Of a DNA stretch of 64,000 nt, positions 54,976-64,000 are shown piece by piece. The notes below the pieces were generated by a model. That model had not been told where the DNA came from. It did not search any database and was given only the letters and a program-made list of their open reading frames with translations. The first letter of the stretch is position 1. Each line of letters starts with the position of its first letter. The stretch covers positions 186,001 through 250,000 of the forward strand of contig CAJXVS010000002.1 in NCBI GenBank assembly GCA_913061265.1, given 5' to 3'. Source of the DNA: an uncultured Halobacteriovorax sp. Its GTDB lineage: Bacteria; Bdellovibrionota; Bacteriovoracia; Bacteriovoracales; Bacteriovoracaceae. Position numbers and translations under genes: made by a program.

Positions 54976-57900
54976 ATGAAACGAAGCCTAATCTTTATTC
55001 TTTTTACTTTTTACTGCGCAAATCTTTTTGCTTTTCCGTGGGTACCCTCAGAATTCTTAGTTGAAGAAAATGGTGTAACGTTAAAGATCACTTGCTCTCA
55101 AAAACAAGATCCGATTGCAGACCTAGGTCATATTGAAAAGATTGAGAATTTTTTAGATTGTAATAATCAGCCGATAGAATCTTATTGTGACTGTATTGCT
55201 AATAAGTATGAAAGCAAGCCTGCTCTATCTCCAGATCAGATTAGAACCTTAGAGACAGAGTTTGGTTTTTTCGGTAATTCTAACTTTCAACATCTTTCGC
55301 AAAAAGTTCAAGACATTGCTTTAAATCAACAAGTTCTTAGTATGTATGGTGACGATGAAAACGAAGCCTGCCTTGATATCAATAGTGGTGGTCCTCACGC
55401 AAGAGCTTATCAGAGGGTTCTAAATTCAACGAAAAGTGCCTTCGAAGAGGCAAAAACTAAAAACGATGATATTCCAGCTTATGTTAACTCAAAGTATATT
55501 GATGAAGCTCTAGTCTCTCAAGGCATGATTATGTCAGCGAAGTCAGAGAACTTTGATAATGAAAAAAATCAGGATTATGAATTTTTAAAAGAAGTAGCTA
55601 AGAGTATTGCTAAGGTGGATCCTGATATCTTATTAAAGGGAAAGACTCATAGAGACTTGATTATGAATTTTGGAACGGATGGAGTTCAGATTGATCCAGC
55701 CCTTAGAGCTCAATATGCTGACAATAAAGCCTTAGTGCCTTGGCAAAAGGGGATTAAGGAATTTGTTGTTAAGGGTGATAACAACTCAAACTATGCCAAT
55801 TCTCCTATCTATCAATCAATGAAGAGAACCTTTGAAAGCTTTGGTCCTTATGAAAAGGGAAAGTACATTGGACGTAAACAGATATTTTTTGAAAAGATGA
55901 TTCAAGCAGTTAAGAAAGTTGGCTTTAAAGAAAGTGATCTTAAGAAACTAGCTAATGATGAAAACCCCGTGATTGATGATTCTAAGTTCAAGAAGCAACT
56001 AAGCACAGATAAATTTAAAAACTCCATGAAACCTTTCGCTAAAGAGCTATGTGCAAACTCTGGATCAATCCTTCTCCAGGATGTTCGAACAAATGTTCTT
56101 GGTGGAAAAAATATGAACGCTTTTAATGAAGGTTTGTACCGGCATCAGGGCAGAAGTCTAATGTCTCAGCTATTGAATATAGACCCTAAAAAAGTTGACG
56201 GAGTAAAAGAGCTTATGAGGTTTTCCTCTATTCAAAAAAGGCTTTTCAGTCAAATGGCACAACAGTTTGATCATCTTGAAAATAAAACTGAGAAAGATAA
56301 AGAAGAGATCTCCAATTACATCCTTGAAAGAAAGGATCAAATGGGGCGCCTTTGGTGTGGAGCTAGTTATGTTTCAACTCAAATTAAAGAATGGAAAAAT
56401 CATGTTTTAAATGATGAAGAAGATAAAAGAAGATTGGTGCTTGCAAAACTTAGTACCTCTGAGCTTGAGGTTCAAGTCGGAAAAGTTCATGAAGACCTTC
56501 GAAATTTAGAGAATGAGTTTTATCAATTAGAGGCGATAACCGATGATATGAGTACCCGGATTATTTTGGCTGAAAATGATATTGAGCAGACACAAAACGA
56601 GATCAATGGGTTAAGTGATAGCCGAGCAGATCAAAAGAAAAAAGAAAAATTAGAAGAAAAATTAACAAATTTAGATTCACTCATCAATAGTTTAGTAAAG
56701 ACTGAAAAAGAAGAAAGTGAAAAAGCCTCTGACCTTTTAAAAGTCATCGATACCAAAGAAGCCTTAGCCGGTAAGATTATATCGGCTATTGATAATCTCA
56801 AGGAGGCATCGGTTAGAAATTATAATCTCAAGCCCGCCTCTACGATAAGCAGTCAAGTTTCAGGAGTTGAGCGTAGCAATAGCCCGATTAAAGCTAATAT
56901 GGGAGCTCACGTAGGAATGACTCAAGGATACTTAAACCATCAACTTTCTGATCAAGTTAAAGCTTTTACAAATGGAAAACCTTCCTTATTAGATGAAGAT
57001 CTTAGACTAGGGATGGAGTTCTTTAATGATGTAGGAGATGTCGAAAAATTCTTAAGTATTAAAAATAGAAAAAACGATCTTCCTTTTACAGTCACAAGTC
57101 TAGTTGATCAAACAATCGCAGATACTCCAATGCTAACCACTGATATTTCTGGTGCCGTTAAATTTTCGACTGAAAATATTGAAGCTATAAAAACAGCTAA
57201 GGTTACAGAGGAAACTCTTGGTATCCTTACTTCATCTACGGCCCTAGGTCTTAAAGAAGGCCTCGATCCAACTTTAACTGAAGAAGTAGGCTCGACTCTT
57301 GTCGCCATGGTTAACAATAGTACTGATAATATTGAAGGAAGTAATGCACCTGATGCAGTCAAAGCAGAACATAAGAATAATGTTACAAACTTCGACAAGG
57401 CCATGGAACCAGTTCTAGGTGAAATGAATTTTAGGGCCCGCGGAGAAAATGGAACACCCAAAGATATAAGAAGCATTATTGAAGAATCAATAGGGACAAA
57501 TCAAAAAGTAAGAAAGATAGCAAGCATGGGTAAAAAACCGAAGAGTTCAAATAGGTTGATTCCTCGAGAATTTTCAACTGAATTTGCTCCTACTCCAATT
57601 GCTAGTCCAGCTCCTGTTAAATTGCCGGCGCAGATCTTAGCTAATTCTAAAAAAATTCTTGGCCCACCACTCTCTCCTTCGTCAGTGGTCAAAGAAGTTC
57701 CCTTTGAGAGAAAAAGTTTTGTCACCAGTTCAGTTTCAGGGCCAAAGGCGGCAAAGAAGCTCGATACTTTAAGTTCTGCTGATGTAAAGGCGATCTTAAG
57801 TAAGAGGATGAGGAGTAATGCAAAAACTAAAAAGACCAGTATTGTTAAGCCGAAGAGAATAGTTGTTGATCCAAAGGTTCAAAAATTAAGAGATGAAATT

Positions 57901-58566
57901 GAAAAGAATAGGCTTATAAGTCAAAAGCTTGATTCTCAAATTAAAGAAACAACTGATCAGACTACGGCCTTAAAGAAGCGAGTTGACCCGATAGCAGTTG
58001 AAGATAAAAAAGCTAGGGTTGTTGCTACTCCAGTTGTTAAGGCTCCAAAGGCCAAGGTAATTGCCGCAAAGAAAAAAGTATCTTCGAGTACTAGAACTCC
58101 AGCAAGATCTAAGTCTTTTGGAGGCGGGTCACTAGGTGGCTCAGGTGGTGGCGGAGGATCAGCTGCTGCTACTTCGGCGATAGAAGGAAGAGTCTCTGGC
58201 GGAGTTGTAGTGAACGGGGAATTTATTCCAAGTGCTCTTTTAGCAAGAAGTATTGACCTTGATGGAGTAAAGCCTATCTCATCGGAATCAATAGTCTTAG
58301 GCTCTAAGAGCTCTTATGAAGCAAAAACCTCAACTAATAAAGCCGTTTCAAAAGGGAAACCTAGAGTGAAAAGTGCTTCATTCTCTTCATTATCAGTCGA
58401 TAAGAAAGAAGAATTTATACAAAAACAGTTTATTAAACTAAAAACAAATAGCCTCGTTATCGAAAATAGCGATGGATCAGAAGTAGTTGTTAAGTCAAAA
58501 GTAAGATTAAGAACCAGAATGAAAGTAGCAGATTTAAACGCTCTCTTCGAGAAGGTAGATGAATAA
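54976..58566 (+). CDS. giant secreted coiled-coil protein, paralog 1
   Basis: 1196 residues. A signal peptide (MKRSLIFILFTFYCANLFA) is followed by a domain of about 440 residues with all seven mature cysteines: C40, C62, C71, C73, C132, C359 and C461. Residues about 490-600 are coiled coil. The long cysteine-free rest is Ser/Thr/Lys-rich, with a Gly-rich stretch (GGGSLGGSGGGGGS) near 1045 and a C-terminal motif KKEEFIQKQF followed by a beta hairpin. The next gene shows the same cysteines in order, the CxCI...KP.LS and ..GFF.. motifs, and a matching C-terminal motif, so they are paralogs. The two overlap by 8 bases. No known enzyme motif; function unknown. Confidence 0.85.
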   Translation: MKRSLIFILFTFYCANLFAFPWVPSEFLVEENGVTLKITCSQKQDPIADLGHIEKIENFLDCNNQPIESYCDCIANKYESKPALSPDQIRTLETEFGFFGNSNFQHLSQKVQDIALNQQVLSMYGDDENEACLDINSGGPHARAYQRVLNSTKSAFEEAKTKNDDIPAYVNSKYIDEALVSQGMIMSAKSENFDNEKNQDYEFLKEVAKSIAKVDPDILLKGKTHRDLIMNFGTDGVQIDPALRAQYADNKALVPWQKGIKEFVVKGDNNSNYANSPIYQSMKRTFESFGPYEKGKYIGRKQIFFEKMIQAVKKVGFKESDLKKLANDENPVIDDSKFKKQLSTDKFKNSMKPFAKELCANSGSILLQDVRTNVLGGKNMNAFNEGLYRHQGRSLMSQLLNIDPKKVDGVKELMRFSSIQKRLFSQMAQQFDHLENKTEKDKEEISNYILERKDQMGRLWCGASYVSTQIKEWKNHVLNDEEDKRRLVLAKLSTSELEVQVGKVHEDLRNLENEFYQLEAITDDMSTRIILAENDIEQTQNEINGLSDSRADQKKKEKLEEKLTNLDSLINSLVKTEKEESEKASDLLKVIDTKEALAGKIISAIDNLKEASVRNYNLKPASTISSQVSGVERSNSPIKANMGAHVGMTQGYLNHQLSDQVKAFTNGKPSLLDEDLRLGMEFFNDVGDVEKFLSIKNRKNDLPFTVTSLVDQTIADTPMLTTDISGAVKFSTENIEAIKTAKVTEETLGILTSSTALGLKEGLDPTLTEEVGSTLVAMVNNSTDNIEGSNAPDAVKAEHKNNVTNFDKAMEPVLGEMNFRARGENGTPKDIRSIIEESIGTNQKVRKIASMGKKPKSSNRLIPREFSTEFAPTPIASPAPVKLPAQILANSKKILGPPLSPSSVVKEVPFERKSFVTSSVSGPKAAKKLDTLSSADVKAILSKRMRSNAKTKKTSIVKPKRIVVDPKVQKLRDEIEKNRLISQKLDSQIKETTDQTTALKKRVDPIAVEDKKARVVATPVVKAPKAKVIAAKKKVSSSTRTPARSKSFGGGSLGGSGGGGGSAAATSAIEGRVSGGVVVNGEFIPSALLARSIDLDGVKPISSESIVLGSKSSYEAKTSTNKAVSKGKPRVKSASFSSLSVDKKEEFIQKQFIKLKTNSLVIENSDGSEVVVKSKVRLRTRMKVADLNALFEKVDE

Positions 58567-61500
58567 GCTAAAGACTTATTTCGCAGTTATTCTTTATTTA
58601 GCAACTAATTCTGTTTATGCAGATAGGGGATTCGAGTCGACTGTTTCTCATATGCTAGGCCCTCTATCCACGATTGTTTGCGGCTTTGTAGAACCTAAAA
58701 AATCTGAATTAGAAAAATTTATAGAAGTTTCTGGAGAGCTAGATTGCTCTAACGAGAAGGATGTTAATAAGCATTGCGCGTGTATAAAAAAAGTTGAGCC
58801 TAAGCCACTTTCAACTCCCATGGAAAATAAATTTTTAGCAGAGCTAGGTTTCTTTCCTCCATTTGGAGATCCAAGTAGTACAAAGCTATTGAGAGATTTG
58901 AGTAACTATAACTCGCTTCTTGGGGCTTATAGTTCTGATCCAGCAGTTAAGCTCCCTCTTAGTGCAAACTTCTTTTCTTGTTTAAACCCAGAAGAACTAG
59001 ATCAGATTGAAAAAACTATGAAAGATAACTTTCTAAATAGTGCTGACACAAAAATAGGTGTTCCTGCATTATACGACTCTGAATTGCTAAAGAAAGTTCG
59101 CTCCACTAATAATATAAAACTGATGGATCTTGACTCGAAAGTTGCGGACGCTGAATTCATAAGGGACATTGCTTCCTTTATAGCTAAAAATGAAGGAGAA
59201 AGTTCCGAAGCAGGAATTCTTTTGAGAAACTCTGATGGAGCAGATGTCTTAGCTAAGAGGGAGACTTTTTGGAAAAAAGAACCAGGTGATTATTCCCATT
59301 TCTCTAATGCTTTAAATGTAAATACGAGCACTGTCACTGATTCTCAAAGAGCTAGTATGGTTTCTGACTTTTTATCAAATAACTCTGAACTTGGTCTTAA
59401 ATATTCAAAGTCGCCTCTTTATAAGGTTTATACCCAAACCTATGAAAGGTCTCAATTAGATATTAGTGACTATCTCGGAAGAGTCGCTACAAAGTCTGGT
59501 ATGGTCAATAATGCTAAATCAAAAATTACTCAGAGTATTCATGAAGATCAAGAGGCCATTGAAAAAGCGGCTTATAAATTACCAACTTCAGTTTTTTTAA
59601 GAGGAGAGTGTGAAAGGTTAAAATCCGAGCTAAAAAGAAATGTCTCATCAAGTTTTAGGGCAGCCCTACCTGACTCTATGGTTACAGTCGAAGGTTACAC
59701 AACTACGATGAGTTATGAAAAGATGCTCCTATCACAGCAAAATGGAAGGTATATCTTAACCGGACTCGGTCCATTTGATCCAAATACAATGGAGGGAAGG
59801 ACTAATACTGAGAGCTTAAGCTTTTACCGTCAACGATTCATAGAGCAATACCGAAAAAACCTTGAGGTTTTTGATGATGAAAAGGCTGAGTACCTACTGA
59901 AAGTAAAGGACTTCAATTTTTCTCAACTGATATGTTCGAAAATAGAGGTTGATGAAGAGGTAGAGAAGGTTGTATTTGAAATTGGAAAGGATAAGAATAG
60001 TTCTGGAATACTTGAGAAAATCCTAGAGACAAAAGAAAAGGTGGCAGAGATTGATGAGAAAATTGTTCTTAATCAATTAAGAGCTGTGAGTCTTAATTCA
60101 GAGAAATCGAATTTAATCGCCGATAACTCAGCCTTGGAAAGCCGGAAGGCTGAGGCTAGTAAAAAGGTAGAGAAAGCCACGCAGTCCAAGGGGCGATACG
60201 CAAAAAGCACTAGCATTATTGCTAAAGGGACAATTGAATCAACAACAAAAGCCATAGAACTTAACAATTCTAGAATCGCTGAAATCGACCTCGAAAGTAA
60301 AAAGAAAGAAGAGGTCATCACGAATTTGGAGTTTCAAAAAGATCTTCTTACGAGTTCCTTTGAACTTCCCTCTCTAAAACTTGAGCCTTTAAACTTTGAT
60401 TTAGTTAAGTCAACAGCTAAAGACCCTTATACAGACTCTGCTTTTCGTAAAAGGATTAATGAGACTTTTCTTGGTTTAGAAATTGATGAATTTGTTGAGG
60501 AGTCAAGTGATGGAATCATAGCTCCTAAGAGAAAGACAATGTTAACTGGCAATAAAGATATACCAAAAGCTCAAATAATTTCTGAAAATATAGAAACAGG
60601 GGAATTTGAATTAATAACAAAATCTGAAGAAATTAAGAGAATCGCCAAAGCGGATGCAGATTTATTAAGCACTCAATCATTATCAATTCTTGATAATAAA
60701 GGAAAGATTACCGCTTCTGAGGCACAAGCTTTTACGGAAATAGTAAGACACCAGAGTAAAAAAACAATCAATATTCTTAAAGAATCTCAGATCAAAAAGA
60801 CAGAGACAAGAGAGCCTATAGTAGAAAAAGTTACTCCTGCATTGAAAAAATTAGTCGACGTTAACTCAAGCGCTGAAACAGTCGCTAAGGGTAGTGAAAT
60901 TCTAAAACTTGCAAGCAAAGGAGCTGTAGAACTTGTAAATAAAAGTGCCGCTAATGAAGATCTGGATCATGTAAAACTATCTTCAGTTAATGAGCAAGTT
61001 GGAGAGAATGGTCCCGAATCATCAAAGTCCGTTGGGGTAAACCTTGCTGAGTATATGAAGAACAACCCGATAAAAGGAATTAATCAGGGAGTAAGTCTTG
61101 TTCATGCGGACATAGGTAATATCGGGACTGCGGCAGTAAAGGATTATTCAACACTGAGGGAAGTCTTTAACTCTTCTAGAGATGATCATGTCGAATCGGC
61201 GAAGGCAAAAGTAAATAATGGAGTAAGCAAGATAGCAAAAGCCTTTACGACCGGAGGGATTTTTTCAGAAGCCCCAATTGATAGTCTTGAGGATATAGAA
61301 CAACTAGGAGAAGGATTAGCTGAGGCGACGAGAAAGAAACTCGAAGAAAGAGGAATAGATATCTCTGGCATCTCTTCTAAAGGGAGTTCTTCATCGGGCT
61401 TTTACGAAAACACCAAAGAAGCAAATGAATTAGAGCAAAAGAGTAGGTTGATGCGAAGAGAAGTAGCAAGTAAGAAAGGCAAATTAAAAGGAATGCAAAT

Positions 61501-62260
61501 TGGTAACATCGGACTTTCTAAGGATTTAGCTAGTCAAAAGCGAGTTGTTAGTAAAATGAAAGATTATAGTTCAAATATTAATCAATTTGATAATACAAAT
61601 TATCTGAGCAAAAATAAAAAAAATGAAAATAAAGAAGATAAAGAAATTACTATAAAAAATGAAGAAAAAGAAAATAAGGAATACACAGAAATCGGTCGTA
61701 GTAAACCTGCACTTTTTCCTGAAAGACAAAATATAGATCAGCCTGCTCTCAGCGGCTTAGAACCGGAGTCGAAAAGGATAGCCAAAGAAATAACTAGAGA
61801 AGTTCAAAAAGCAGGTCAAATAAGACAGGCAATACCTCGAAGTATTGGAAAGAGTAGTTCTAGCCCTAGAAAAGTTGGTTCAGCCGTTAGTCAGGGAGGA
61901 AGTAGCGGGGCATCTTCAAGCACTTCAGCAGGAACTGTTTCAAAAGATCCTTCTTCGCCAGCAGCAACAGGACGTTCTATAGCTAGTGTGAAAACCCCTA
62001 GGAAAGAAAATAATTTAAATTTTGATAATAAGGTATTGGCCTTAAATGAAAAAAGCTATGCAGTGACTCCAGTTCTCGAAGGTGTAGATAGTGACCTTTA
62101 CCTTAGGCTTCCAAGCTTTGACACACCGGAAAACTTCCTCGATTATTCAGCCGAGAATCGAAATAAATGGATTGCAGAGCAGTTTAAAAGCTCCAAGGCC
62201 CTAGAGGCCATTATTGTGCTCCCTAGTGGTCAGAAGGTCCTTGTTAAAAAGAAGGACTAA
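58559..62260 (+). CDS. giant secreted coiled-coil protein, paralog 2
   Basis: 1233 residues. A signal peptide (about 1-21) precedes a domain with C41, C63, C73, C75, C141, C351 and C459. Against paralog 1 the first two cysteines are both 22 residues apart, GFF is at 97-99 in both, and SPLYKVYTQTYE matches SPIYQSMKRTFE. Long coiled coils (about 480-610) and a Lys/Glu/Ser-rich low-complexity region (about 1020-1180) follow. The chain ends in NKWIAEQF and VLPSGQKVLVKKKD, like the end of paralog 1. Translation is probably coupled: it starts 8 bases before the stop of paralog 1. Function unknown. Confidence 0.85.
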   Translation: MNKLKTYFAVILYLATNSVYADRGFESTVSHMLGPLSTIVCGFVEPKKSELEKFIEVSGELDCSNEKDVNKHCACIKKVEPKPLSTPMENKFLAELGFFPPFGDPSSTKLLRDLSNYNSLLGAYSSDPAVKLPLSANFFSCLNPEELDQIEKTMKDNFLNSADTKIGVPALYDSELLKKVRSTNNIKLMDLDSKVADAEFIRDIASFIAKNEGESSEAGILLRNSDGADVLAKRETFWKKEPGDYSHFSNALNVNTSTVTDSQRASMVSDFLSNNSELGLKYSKSPLYKVYTQTYERSQLDISDYLGRVATKSGMVNNAKSKITQSIHEDQEAIEKAAYKLPTSVFLRGECERLKSELKRNVSSSFRAALPDSMVTVEGYTTTMSYEKMLLSQQNGRYILTGLGPFDPNTMEGRTNTESLSFYRQRFIEQYRKNLEVFDDEKAEYLLKVKDFNFSQLICSKIEVDEEVEKVVFEIGKDKNSSGILEKILETKEKVAEIDEKIVLNQLRAVSLNSEKSNLIADNSALESRKAEASKKVEKATQSKGRYAKSTSIIAKGTIESTTKAIELNNSRIAEIDLESKKKEEVITNLEFQKDLLTSSFELPSLKLEPLNFDLVKSTAKDPYTDSAFRKRINETFLGLEIDEFVEESSDGIIAPKRKTMLTGNKDIPKAQIISENIETGEFELITKSEEIKRIAKADADLLSTQSLSILDNKGKITASEAQAFTEIVRHQSKKTINILKESQIKKTETREPIVEKVTPALKKLVDVNSSAETVAKGSEILKLASKGAVELVNKSAANEDLDHVKLSSVNEQVGENGPESSKSVGVNLAEYMKNNPIKGINQGVSLVHADIGNIGTAAVKDYSTLREVFNSSRDDHVESAKAKVNNGVSKIAKAFTTGGIFSEAPIDSLEDIEQLGEGLAEATRKKLEERGIDISGISSKGSSSSGFYENTKEANELEQKSRLMRREVASKKGKLKGMQIGNIGLSKDLASQKRVVSKMKDYSSNINQFDNTNYLSKNKKNENKEDKEITIKNEEKENKEYTEIGRSKPALFPERQNIDQPALSGLEPESKRIAKEITREVQKAGQIRQAIPRSIGKSSSSPRKVGSAVSQGGSSGASSSTSAGTVSKDPSSPAATGRSIASVKTPRKENNLNFDNKVLALNEKSYAVTPVLEGVDSDLYLRLPSFDTPENFLDYSAENRNKWIAEQFKSSKALEAIIVLPSGQKVLVKKKD

Positions 62261-62286
62261 GCCTTAAAATACCCTCATAAGTATTG

Positions 62287-62321
62287 ATAATCAGGATCTA
62301 TTTTTGATAGATAAAACCTAT
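62287..62321 (+). promoter_or_regulatory. tandem OxyR-type dyads upstream of redox operon
   Basis: Site 1 (62287-62301) is ATAATCAGGATCTAT and site 2 (62307-62321) is ATAGATAAAACCTAT. Site 2 matches the OxyR half-site ATAG-N-T-N3-A-N-CTAT at every defined base; site 1 matches all but two. They are 5 bases apart, against 7 in the E. coli consensus. A TATATT -10 lies at 62349-62354 without a good -35, so an activator bound just upstream is plausible. Confidence 0.5.
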
Positions 62322-62395
62322 CGTAACATTTAGACAATCGATTTCACTTATATTCAATAATAGACGAAACTAACTAAGTAAGAAGCTGAGGTTTT

Positions 62396-63397
62396 ATGAA
62401 AACAAAAGATGATTTAAAGACAATAGTAATTGGTGGCGGCGCAGCCGGTATAATGGCGGCCTTAAGAGGTGTCTTAAATAATGAAAGAGTTATTCTTTAT
62501 TTAGGCTCAGGAAAGGCCAGAAAGAAGAGCCGCGAGATGTGGGTCTCTAAAGTCGAAAACATGCCAGGCTATGAGCATTATAAAAAGGGGATTGTTAACC
62601 CTAATAAAGACACACTTACTTGGATAAAAGAAAGTAAGTTTGCTGAGAACTTAGAAGTCATCAGAACTTCAGTCAAAGAAATCAAGAAGCTTGATGATGG
62701 TAGCTTTGAAGTTATTGATGAAAAAGAGAATACTCAAAAGGCTTTTGCCGTTGTATTGGCCACGGGAGTGATGGACGTTCAACCTCATATTCAAGGTAGC
62801 ATCGAACCAGTTCTTCCTTACGCTAATGTTCAATTGATTGATTATTGTATTCGTTGTGATGGGCATCATGTTCATGGCAAAAGAACCTCGATCATAGGGC
62901 ATGGAAACGTAGCAGGGTGGATTGCGATTCTTTTAAAAGAGCGTTACGACGTTAAAGATATGGTTGTTCTCACAAATGGTGAAGAGCCTGAGTTTGATGA
63001 TGAAGTTAAAAAGCTTCATGAGGCTTATGGGGTGACTATAGAGAAATCACCTATTAAAGATATCAACGGTAATGCTAAAGAGCTCATCCTTGAAGGATAT
63101 GTTCTTGAAGATGGAACAGAGATCAAGAGTGATATCTCTTTCGTCTCTTTAGGCATGCTTGTTTATAATGAACTCGCCACTGCTATAGGAGCTGAGGTTG
63201 ACGGTAGGGGCTTTGTTAAAACGAATAGTAAAGGTGAAACAAATATTGAAGGACTTTACGCAATTGGGGATCTTCAAGCAGATACAAAGAAACAAATCTA
63301 TACGAGTTGGGATATGGCAGTAGATGCACTAGATGATATCGACAACAAAATTAGAAGAATATTAAGACAACAAACACTAGATAATTTTGGAGGATAA
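62396..63397 (+). CDS. thioredoxin-reductase-like flavoprotein
   Basis: 333 residues. FAD-binding [10 protein letters not shown] (about 13-22), the redox pair C151/C154 in YCIRCDGH, the NAD(P)-binding GHGNVAGW (about 168-175) and GLYAIGDLQ near 288 follow the TrxR order. The CIRC pair corresponds to CATC of E. coli TrxR. It probably reduces a thioredoxin or glutaredoxin-like partner. The adjacent gene, starting 1 base after its stop with a GGAGG site, is a peroxiredoxin-glutaredoxin hybrid, so it may be its electron donor (inference). Confidence 0.88.
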
Positions 63398-63398
63398 A

Positions 63399-64000
63399 AT
63401 GAATTTAGAAAACAAAGAGGGACAAAAGGTTCCAGAAGTAATTTTTAAAACAAGAAAAGATGGTGACTGGTTAGATGTATCGACTAAAGATCTTTTCGCA
63501 GGAAAAAAAGTAGTCGTCTTTTCATTGCCTGGCGCTTTTACGCCAACTTGTTCATCAACTCACTTACCGCGCTATAACGACCTAGCTCCAATCTTTAAAG
63601 AAAATGGAGTGGATAGTGTTATCTGCCTTTCAGTAAACGATGGTTTTGTTATGGAAGCTTGGGGCGTTGATCAAGAAGCAGAGAATATTCAATTGATTCC
63701 TGATGGAAACGGAGAATTCTCTGAAGGCATGGGGATGCTTGTTGATAAATCGGCCATTGGTTTTGGAAAAAGATCATGGCGCTATTCAATGCTGGTTAAT
63801 GATGGAGTGGTTGAAAAGCAATTCATCGAACCAGATAAGCCAGGAGATCCTTTTGAAGTAAGTGATGCTGATACAATGCTTAACTTCATCAATAAAGATG
63901 CCGTCGTAAGCGACGGGGCAACTGTCTTTACTAAAGTTGGGTGTCCTCACTGTAAAGCTGCTAAAGAGTTACTAACCGCCAAAGGAATTAAGATCACTGA
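63399..64000 (+). CDS. hybrid peroxiredoxin-glutaredoxin, cut by window end
   Basis: At least 200 residues; the C-terminus lies beyond the window. Residues about 1-165 are a Prx5-type peroxiredoxin with the peroxidatic Cys in [18 protein letters not shown]. After a short linker a glutaredoxin domain begins (about 170 on) with the active site GCPHC in [16 protein letters not shown]. The fusion is known from hyPrx5 proteins, which reduce peroxides using glutathione. A GGAGG ribosome-binding site precedes the ATG. It probably shares a transcript with the flavoprotein gene. Confidence 0.92.

Follow-up and report, generated by a model that had tools for sequence, protein, structure and literature searches.

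The operon and its surroundings

Near the end of the window, by which we mean the whole 64,000-base stretch analysed here (G000:C2:186001-250000, from a genome of 3.97 Mb in 12 contigs that is 99.75% complete), lie two adjoining genes on the forward strand. The first (62396-63397) encodes a flavoprotein of 333 residues with a C-I-R-C-D-G centre and a Pyr_redox_2 match of 100.9 bits. The second begins a single base after its stop codon and runs from 63399 to the window end at 64000 and on to 64121 (L012:3399-4121). It encodes a protein of 240 residues in which a Redoxin domain (residues 6-161, 110.6 bits; cysteine motif PTCSSTH) is followed by a Glutaredoxin domain (residues 175-229, 40.4 bits; CPHC), so that both parts of a peroxiredoxin-glutaredoxin fusion (Prx-Grx) are present. 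A first-pass annotation had read the pair as a thioredoxin reductase (TrxR)-like flavoprotein and a peroxiredoxin-glutaredoxin, and the domain matches bear this out.

The solved structures nearest to the flavoprotein are a thioredoxin reductase (3cty) and Gll2934 of Gloeobacter (5n0j), but its score against the thioredoxin reductase (TrxB) model TIGR01292 is 105.7 bits, far under the cut-off of 343.45, and for this reason it is called TrxR-like only. It has in common with Gll2934 and other TrxR-like flavoproteins the fold family, the CxxCDG centre and an ATG-x-MDV-x-P stretch, although the likeness to Gll2934, which we take to be a DDOR-type enzyme, amounts to only 55.9 bits. The NADPH motif of TrxB proteins is HRRxxxR; here CxxCDG is kept but TNGEEPEFD stands at the place of that motif, and the electron donor of the flavoprotein may be other than NADPH. 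The same TNGxEPE stretch is found in the TrxR-like protein of a relative (L148). Upstream of the operon lie two long frames (54976-58566, 1196 residues, and 58559-62260, 1233 residues) that overlap by 8 bases, have similar, cysteine-containing N-termini and gave no Pfam match at 0.001; they are possibly paralogues.

Dyads in front of the operon and their conservation

The region before the operon contains the dyad ATAGATAAAACCTAT (62307-62321), in which all eight bases of ATAG-N7-CTAT are matched and which also fits the inner t and a of the consensus ATAGntnnnanCTAT. Five bases upstream is a near copy, ATAATCAGGATCTAT (62287-62301), with seven of the eight dyad bases, and downstream a TATATT (62349-62354) that fits TATAAT in five of six positions. 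The letters thus agree with the two dyads, the 5-base interval and the hexamer of the first-pass annotation. Its further statement that the match extends to the defined inner bases holds for ATAGATAAAACCTAT.

On sequence alone, neither dyad exceeds chance. ATAG-N7-CTAT with at most one mismatch occurs 35 times in the window against 32.3 expected, a density at which a second 7/8 dyad at any of 14 nearby offsets has a chance of about 1%, and the exact 10-letter motif occurs at 7 places in the genome as compared with 11 for its reversed control. As a regulon finder this motif was rejected, its places being mostly within genes or near unrelated ones, as was a double-dyad pattern with a gap of 4-8 bases, for which the genome search returned 0 places. 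A search for a terminator at the site found none. With the dyads so unremarkable by themselves, only comparison can decide.

A search of 59 genomes gave a full-length Prx-Grx match in 11, and for each of these orthologous genes or operons the 200 bases that precede its first gene were scored. The TrxR-like gene stands just before Prx-Grx in six genomes and is missing from that position in the other five. The best ATAG-N7-CTAT, with a gap of 7, matches at least seven of eight bases in 11/11 regions and all eight in 7/11, whereas the corresponding means over 1000 dinucleotide shuffles were 2.1 and 0.1, with maxima of 6 and 3. Three of the 11 regions come from one genus; four of the remaining eight are 8/8. 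Other gap lengths and 12 other dyads reached no comparable count, save for shifted readings of the same site. Two further relatives may be set beside these: in L160, which has the operon, the 200 bases ahead of the TrxR-like match contain no dyad that reaches 7/8, and L161 has an 8/8 dyad. Neither congener (G001, G002) has the 62287 copy, its CTAT half being absent there. It is this difference in conservation that tells the two dyads apart: judged by the orthologues, the 62307 dyad is real and the 62287 copy lies outside the conserved site. The search of orthologous upstream regions that the first-pass annotation had proposed upholds its double dyad in one half only.

Register of the downstream dyads and predicted promoter

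For a finer view, 24 sites were aligned on the dyad, namely 11 operon sites and 13 beside oxyR genes; eight of the 24 go beyond a sampling of one operon site per genome, and do so only in that some genomes give both kinds. When second dyads were scored at 22 of these (leaving out the window site and that of G011, which is anchored on a weaker dyad), mean scores peaked at +21 (4.86 of 8) and +30 (4.73), above the maximum of 3.68 in 2000 shuffles of the flanks. Offset -20 scored 2.5 of 8, which is background, as were the offsets from -20 to -22. Hexamers were scored at 21 sites, with both own-genome sites and G011 left out. The best mean fit to TTGACA fell at +36 (3.15, null maximum 2.73) and that to TATAAT at +59 (3.70, null maximum 3.30), which leaves 17 bases between the two. 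With TATAAT reversed as a control, the value was 3.40, which is also above its shuffle maximum of 3.25, so that the -10 alone is weaker evidence.

Carried over to the window, these peaks mark a degenerate dyad ATTTAGACAATCGAT at 62328-62342 (+21), the putative IR2 or activation dyad, and an IR3-like dyad ATCGATTTCACTTAT at 62337-62351 (+30), which overlaps both IR2 and the -35 and would be the site of reduced OxyR; the 62307 dyad would then be IR1, the recognition dyad and primary OxyR site. The predicted -35 is TTCACT (62343-62348) and the predicted -10 is GAAACT (62366-62371), both on the forward strand; the latter is weak, with 3/6 matches, and is identical in this genome, G001 and G002. 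Transcription would start near 62378, which places the centres of the three dyads at about -64, -43 and -34. At many sites of this kind (L143, L147, L139, L149 and others) a CG recurs just before the -10 (CGATAAT-like), between +57 and +64, and may be a feature of promoters in this lineage.

The first-pass annotation had drawn the site differently, with an OxyR tetrad on 62287-62301 and 62307-62321 at a 20-base spacing and TATATT at 62349 as the -10. Both dyads are present, the hexamer is close to consensus and the footprint would stop upstream of the -35. However, the upstream copy, tried as a conserved part of the site, was rejected on its absence from both congeners and on the background score at -20; conserved partners lie downstream at +21 and +30, and the sites of E. 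coli and other bacteria likewise extend downstream from IR1. TATATT has no -35 at a matching distance and falls within the spacer of the better-supported promoter at 62343-62371. We regard this arrangement as highly improbable; the site was drawn one dyad too far upstream.

The probable regulator

The genome has 11 LysR-type genes, one of which (C2:30392-31324, on the same contig and about 217 kb from the Prx-Grx gene) encodes an OxyR-like protein, a gene whose presence the first-pass annotation had asked to be checked. The protein has an HTH_1 match of 62.9 bits and carries GHCFRSQVLKVC, a GHC-X8-C stretch that matches the OxyR pair C199-X8-C208; among NCBIfam models OxyR fits it best (E 1.4e-66), and OxyR proteins are also its top hits among solved structures. 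Its 224.9 bits lie under the curated cut-off of 329 for NF008361, and for this reason the name OxyR-like is given here on sequence, its chief support being the cysteines. Each of the 11 genomes that encode a full-length Prx-Grx also has an OxyR-like match, at 50-85% identity in eight others, at 41% in G014 and, in G002, as a fragment of 69 residues where a contig ends. GHC-X8-C is present at 23 of 30 OxyR-like loci; the expression failed to match the other seven, in L091 through a misread frame. Divergent from oxyR in this genome (L009:884-1480, G000:C2) is a frame of 43 residues with no Pfam match and a similar form in G001, and after it a glyoxalase-family gene, which recurs beside oxyR in several relatives (L075, L080, L081, L100).

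T-N11-A dyads are common to the LysR family, and the ten further LysR-type genes of the genome offer other candidates for a regulator that uses the dyad. Yet GHC-X8-C was found in none of these proteins that were read (all but L010), and a composite pattern of the whole site, described below, reappears in the intergenic region at oxyR, both here and in relatives, and precedes peroxide-defence genes. A LysR-type regulator other than OxyR is thus a poor candidate, with about as little in its favour as the 20-base arrangement.

The composite site and a probable peroxide regulon

The composite pattern was written from the aligned sites, those of the present genome included. Its best match in this genome is the window site, from 62307, with one mismatch; the two next-best places, with two mismatches, are the oxyR intergenic and one inside an open frame. 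The composite also stands in the oxyR intergenics of relatives. In 59 family genomes there are 152 places with at most two mismatches, whereas the reversed control has 67; many of the two-mismatch places fall within genes.

At least 11 places match without mismatch, eight of which were given loci. The next gene is rubrerythrin-like at L129 and L151, ferritin-like/Dps at L130, Prx-Grx at L147, TrxR-like at L148, AhpC-like at L154 and L156 and a cytochrome c at L155; Pfam was run for L129, L130, L147 and L155, and the others were assigned by reading their sequences. Peroxide defence fits seven of the eight, or four of five when the contributors to the pattern (L148, L154 and L156) are set aside. 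In relatives, genes of AhpC-like, rubrerythrin-like or Dps-like type adjoin oxyR itself, and the composite is found ahead of such genes.

In the present genome, no composite with fewer than six mismatches stands in front of any of 15 AhpC-TSA loci or of one catalase-like locus. At one locus, L246, an 8/8 dyad runs over the start codon region, probably by chance. Neither PF00141 (KatG) nor PF02915 (rubrerythrin) has a match in this genome, and PF00199 has a single marginal catalase-like one (L243, G000:C2:363881-364132, 24.8 bits). Given this inventory, inducible defence against peroxide may depend chiefly on the operon. The L243 match sits in a frame of 386 residues with a lipoprotein-like start.

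A model for the promoter

Collectively, these comparisons suggest, with a probability that we put at about 0.84, that 62307-62371 is the OxyR-controlled promoter of a two-gene operon for the TrxR-like flavoprotein and Prx-Grx. Support comes from the conserved dyad, the weaker dyads at +21 and +30, the fixed-distance hexamers at +36 and +59 and the composite in the oxyR intergenic. The peroxide and OxyR reading of function given in the first-pass annotation is very likely right, a peroxide-linked activator site of OxyR type being well supported by the oxyR gene and the conserved dyads. These were two of the three points on which that annotation had said it could fail, and neither came out against it. 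It is far less probable, and the weakest of the readings considered, that OxyR mainly represses a promoter upstream of the dyads: a promoter-like pair TTAAAA-16-GATAAT does lie at 62264-62291 and IR3 does overlap a -35, but two such pairs were found where shuffles lead one to expect 0.8, GATAAT is absent from that place in G001 and G002, and the conserved hexamers sit downstream.

Under OxyR activation from the 62307 dyad, OxyR would occupy that dyad in both redox states, and peroxide would lead to a CX8C disulphide in the regulator. On oxidation a second dimer would leave the +30 dyad, which covers the -35, for the +21 dyad, where it would contact RNA polymerase and turn the operon on; this sliding from IR3 to IR2 is carried over from the model published for oxyS (PMC5002191). 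The peroxiredoxin would then clear the peroxide; resetting OxyR may be the task of the glutaredoxin part, by analogy with the proposal for PgdX of Haemophilus influenzae. The reading amounts to a prediction of how a marine predatory bacterium responds to peroxide and, layout apart, extends a known regulon in an ordinary way.

A layout shorter by one base

Judged by the alignment, the site behaves like an OxyR tetrad minus one base. Where the E. coli layout has its second dyad at +22, the one here is at +21, and the shorter offset scores better than +22 at 22 of 24 Bdellovibrionota anchors. The two exceptions are L077 and the first L086 site, neither with a target read in that direction; with these and G011 removed, +21 is better at 21 of 21. 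For an outgroup, 76 Prx-Grx loci of other bacteria (L162-L237) were examined and 47 kept, these having a 7/8 dyad in range and being thinned to less than 70% identity; the other 29 were removed for lack of a dyad, lack of a flank or redundancy. Here +22 is better in 42, +21 in two (L166 from Myxococcales and L184 from Deltaproteobacteria) and three are tied. The hexamers of a like outgroup set (48 loci, still including L161) peak at +37 and +60, shifted by one. In E. coli MG1655, likewise, the scores at +22 are 7 for oxyS, 6 for ahpC and grxA, 5 for katG and 4 for dps, as against 1-2 at +21, and IR3 of oxyS scores 6/8 at +31 from IR1.

We lean, if by a modest margin, towards the view that OxyR promoters throughout Bdellovibrionota are, as a whole, more compact by one base than those of E. 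coli and other bacteria, with IR1 closer to IR2, IR3, the -35 and the -10, and these four keeping their mutual distances. The shorter layout may extend beyond Bdellovibrionota, since the Prx-Grx locus L166 has it at 7/8; an OxyR-like gene is adjacent to that locus. Should both layouts turn out to work, the tetramer of OxyR, or its DNA bend, must differ by about one tenth of a turn between lineages, which would make a natural experiment on the sliding of LysR-type dimers.

Comparison with known systems

OxyR control of a peroxiredoxin-glutaredoxin is already known from pgdX of Haemophilus influenzae, a fusion enzyme of the same class as that described here, for which the published account gives oxyR-dependent induction by H2O2 and proposes that PgdX reduces and so resets OxyR as feedback (PMC3511568). 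There pgdX is divergent from oxyR, whereas the Prx-Grx gene of the window lies far from oxyR and behind a TrxR-like gene (PMC3511568). The kind of system is known, and the one-base-shorter layout is a variant of it: among the published titles listed on OxyR, Bdellovibrionota and oxidative stress in Halobacteriovorax, in a search that took in few subscription journals, none describes the site or the shorter layout.

The closest likeness in arrangement is to the oxyR-oxyS region of E. coli, although the target in the window is an enzyme operon away from oxyR. Both have three dyads of ATAG-N7-CTAT type with the strongest farthest upstream, IR2 and IR3 overlap near the -35, and a second dimer in the oxyS model slides from IR3 to IR2 upon oxidation (PMC5002191). 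The dyads of oxyS are centred at -66, -44 and -35 (PMC5002191), and those of the window at about -64, -43 and -34, so that the offsets from IR1 are +22 and +31 in E. coli and +21 and +30 here. How an OxyR tetramer recognises its DNA is a question that this difference of one base brings into sharp form.
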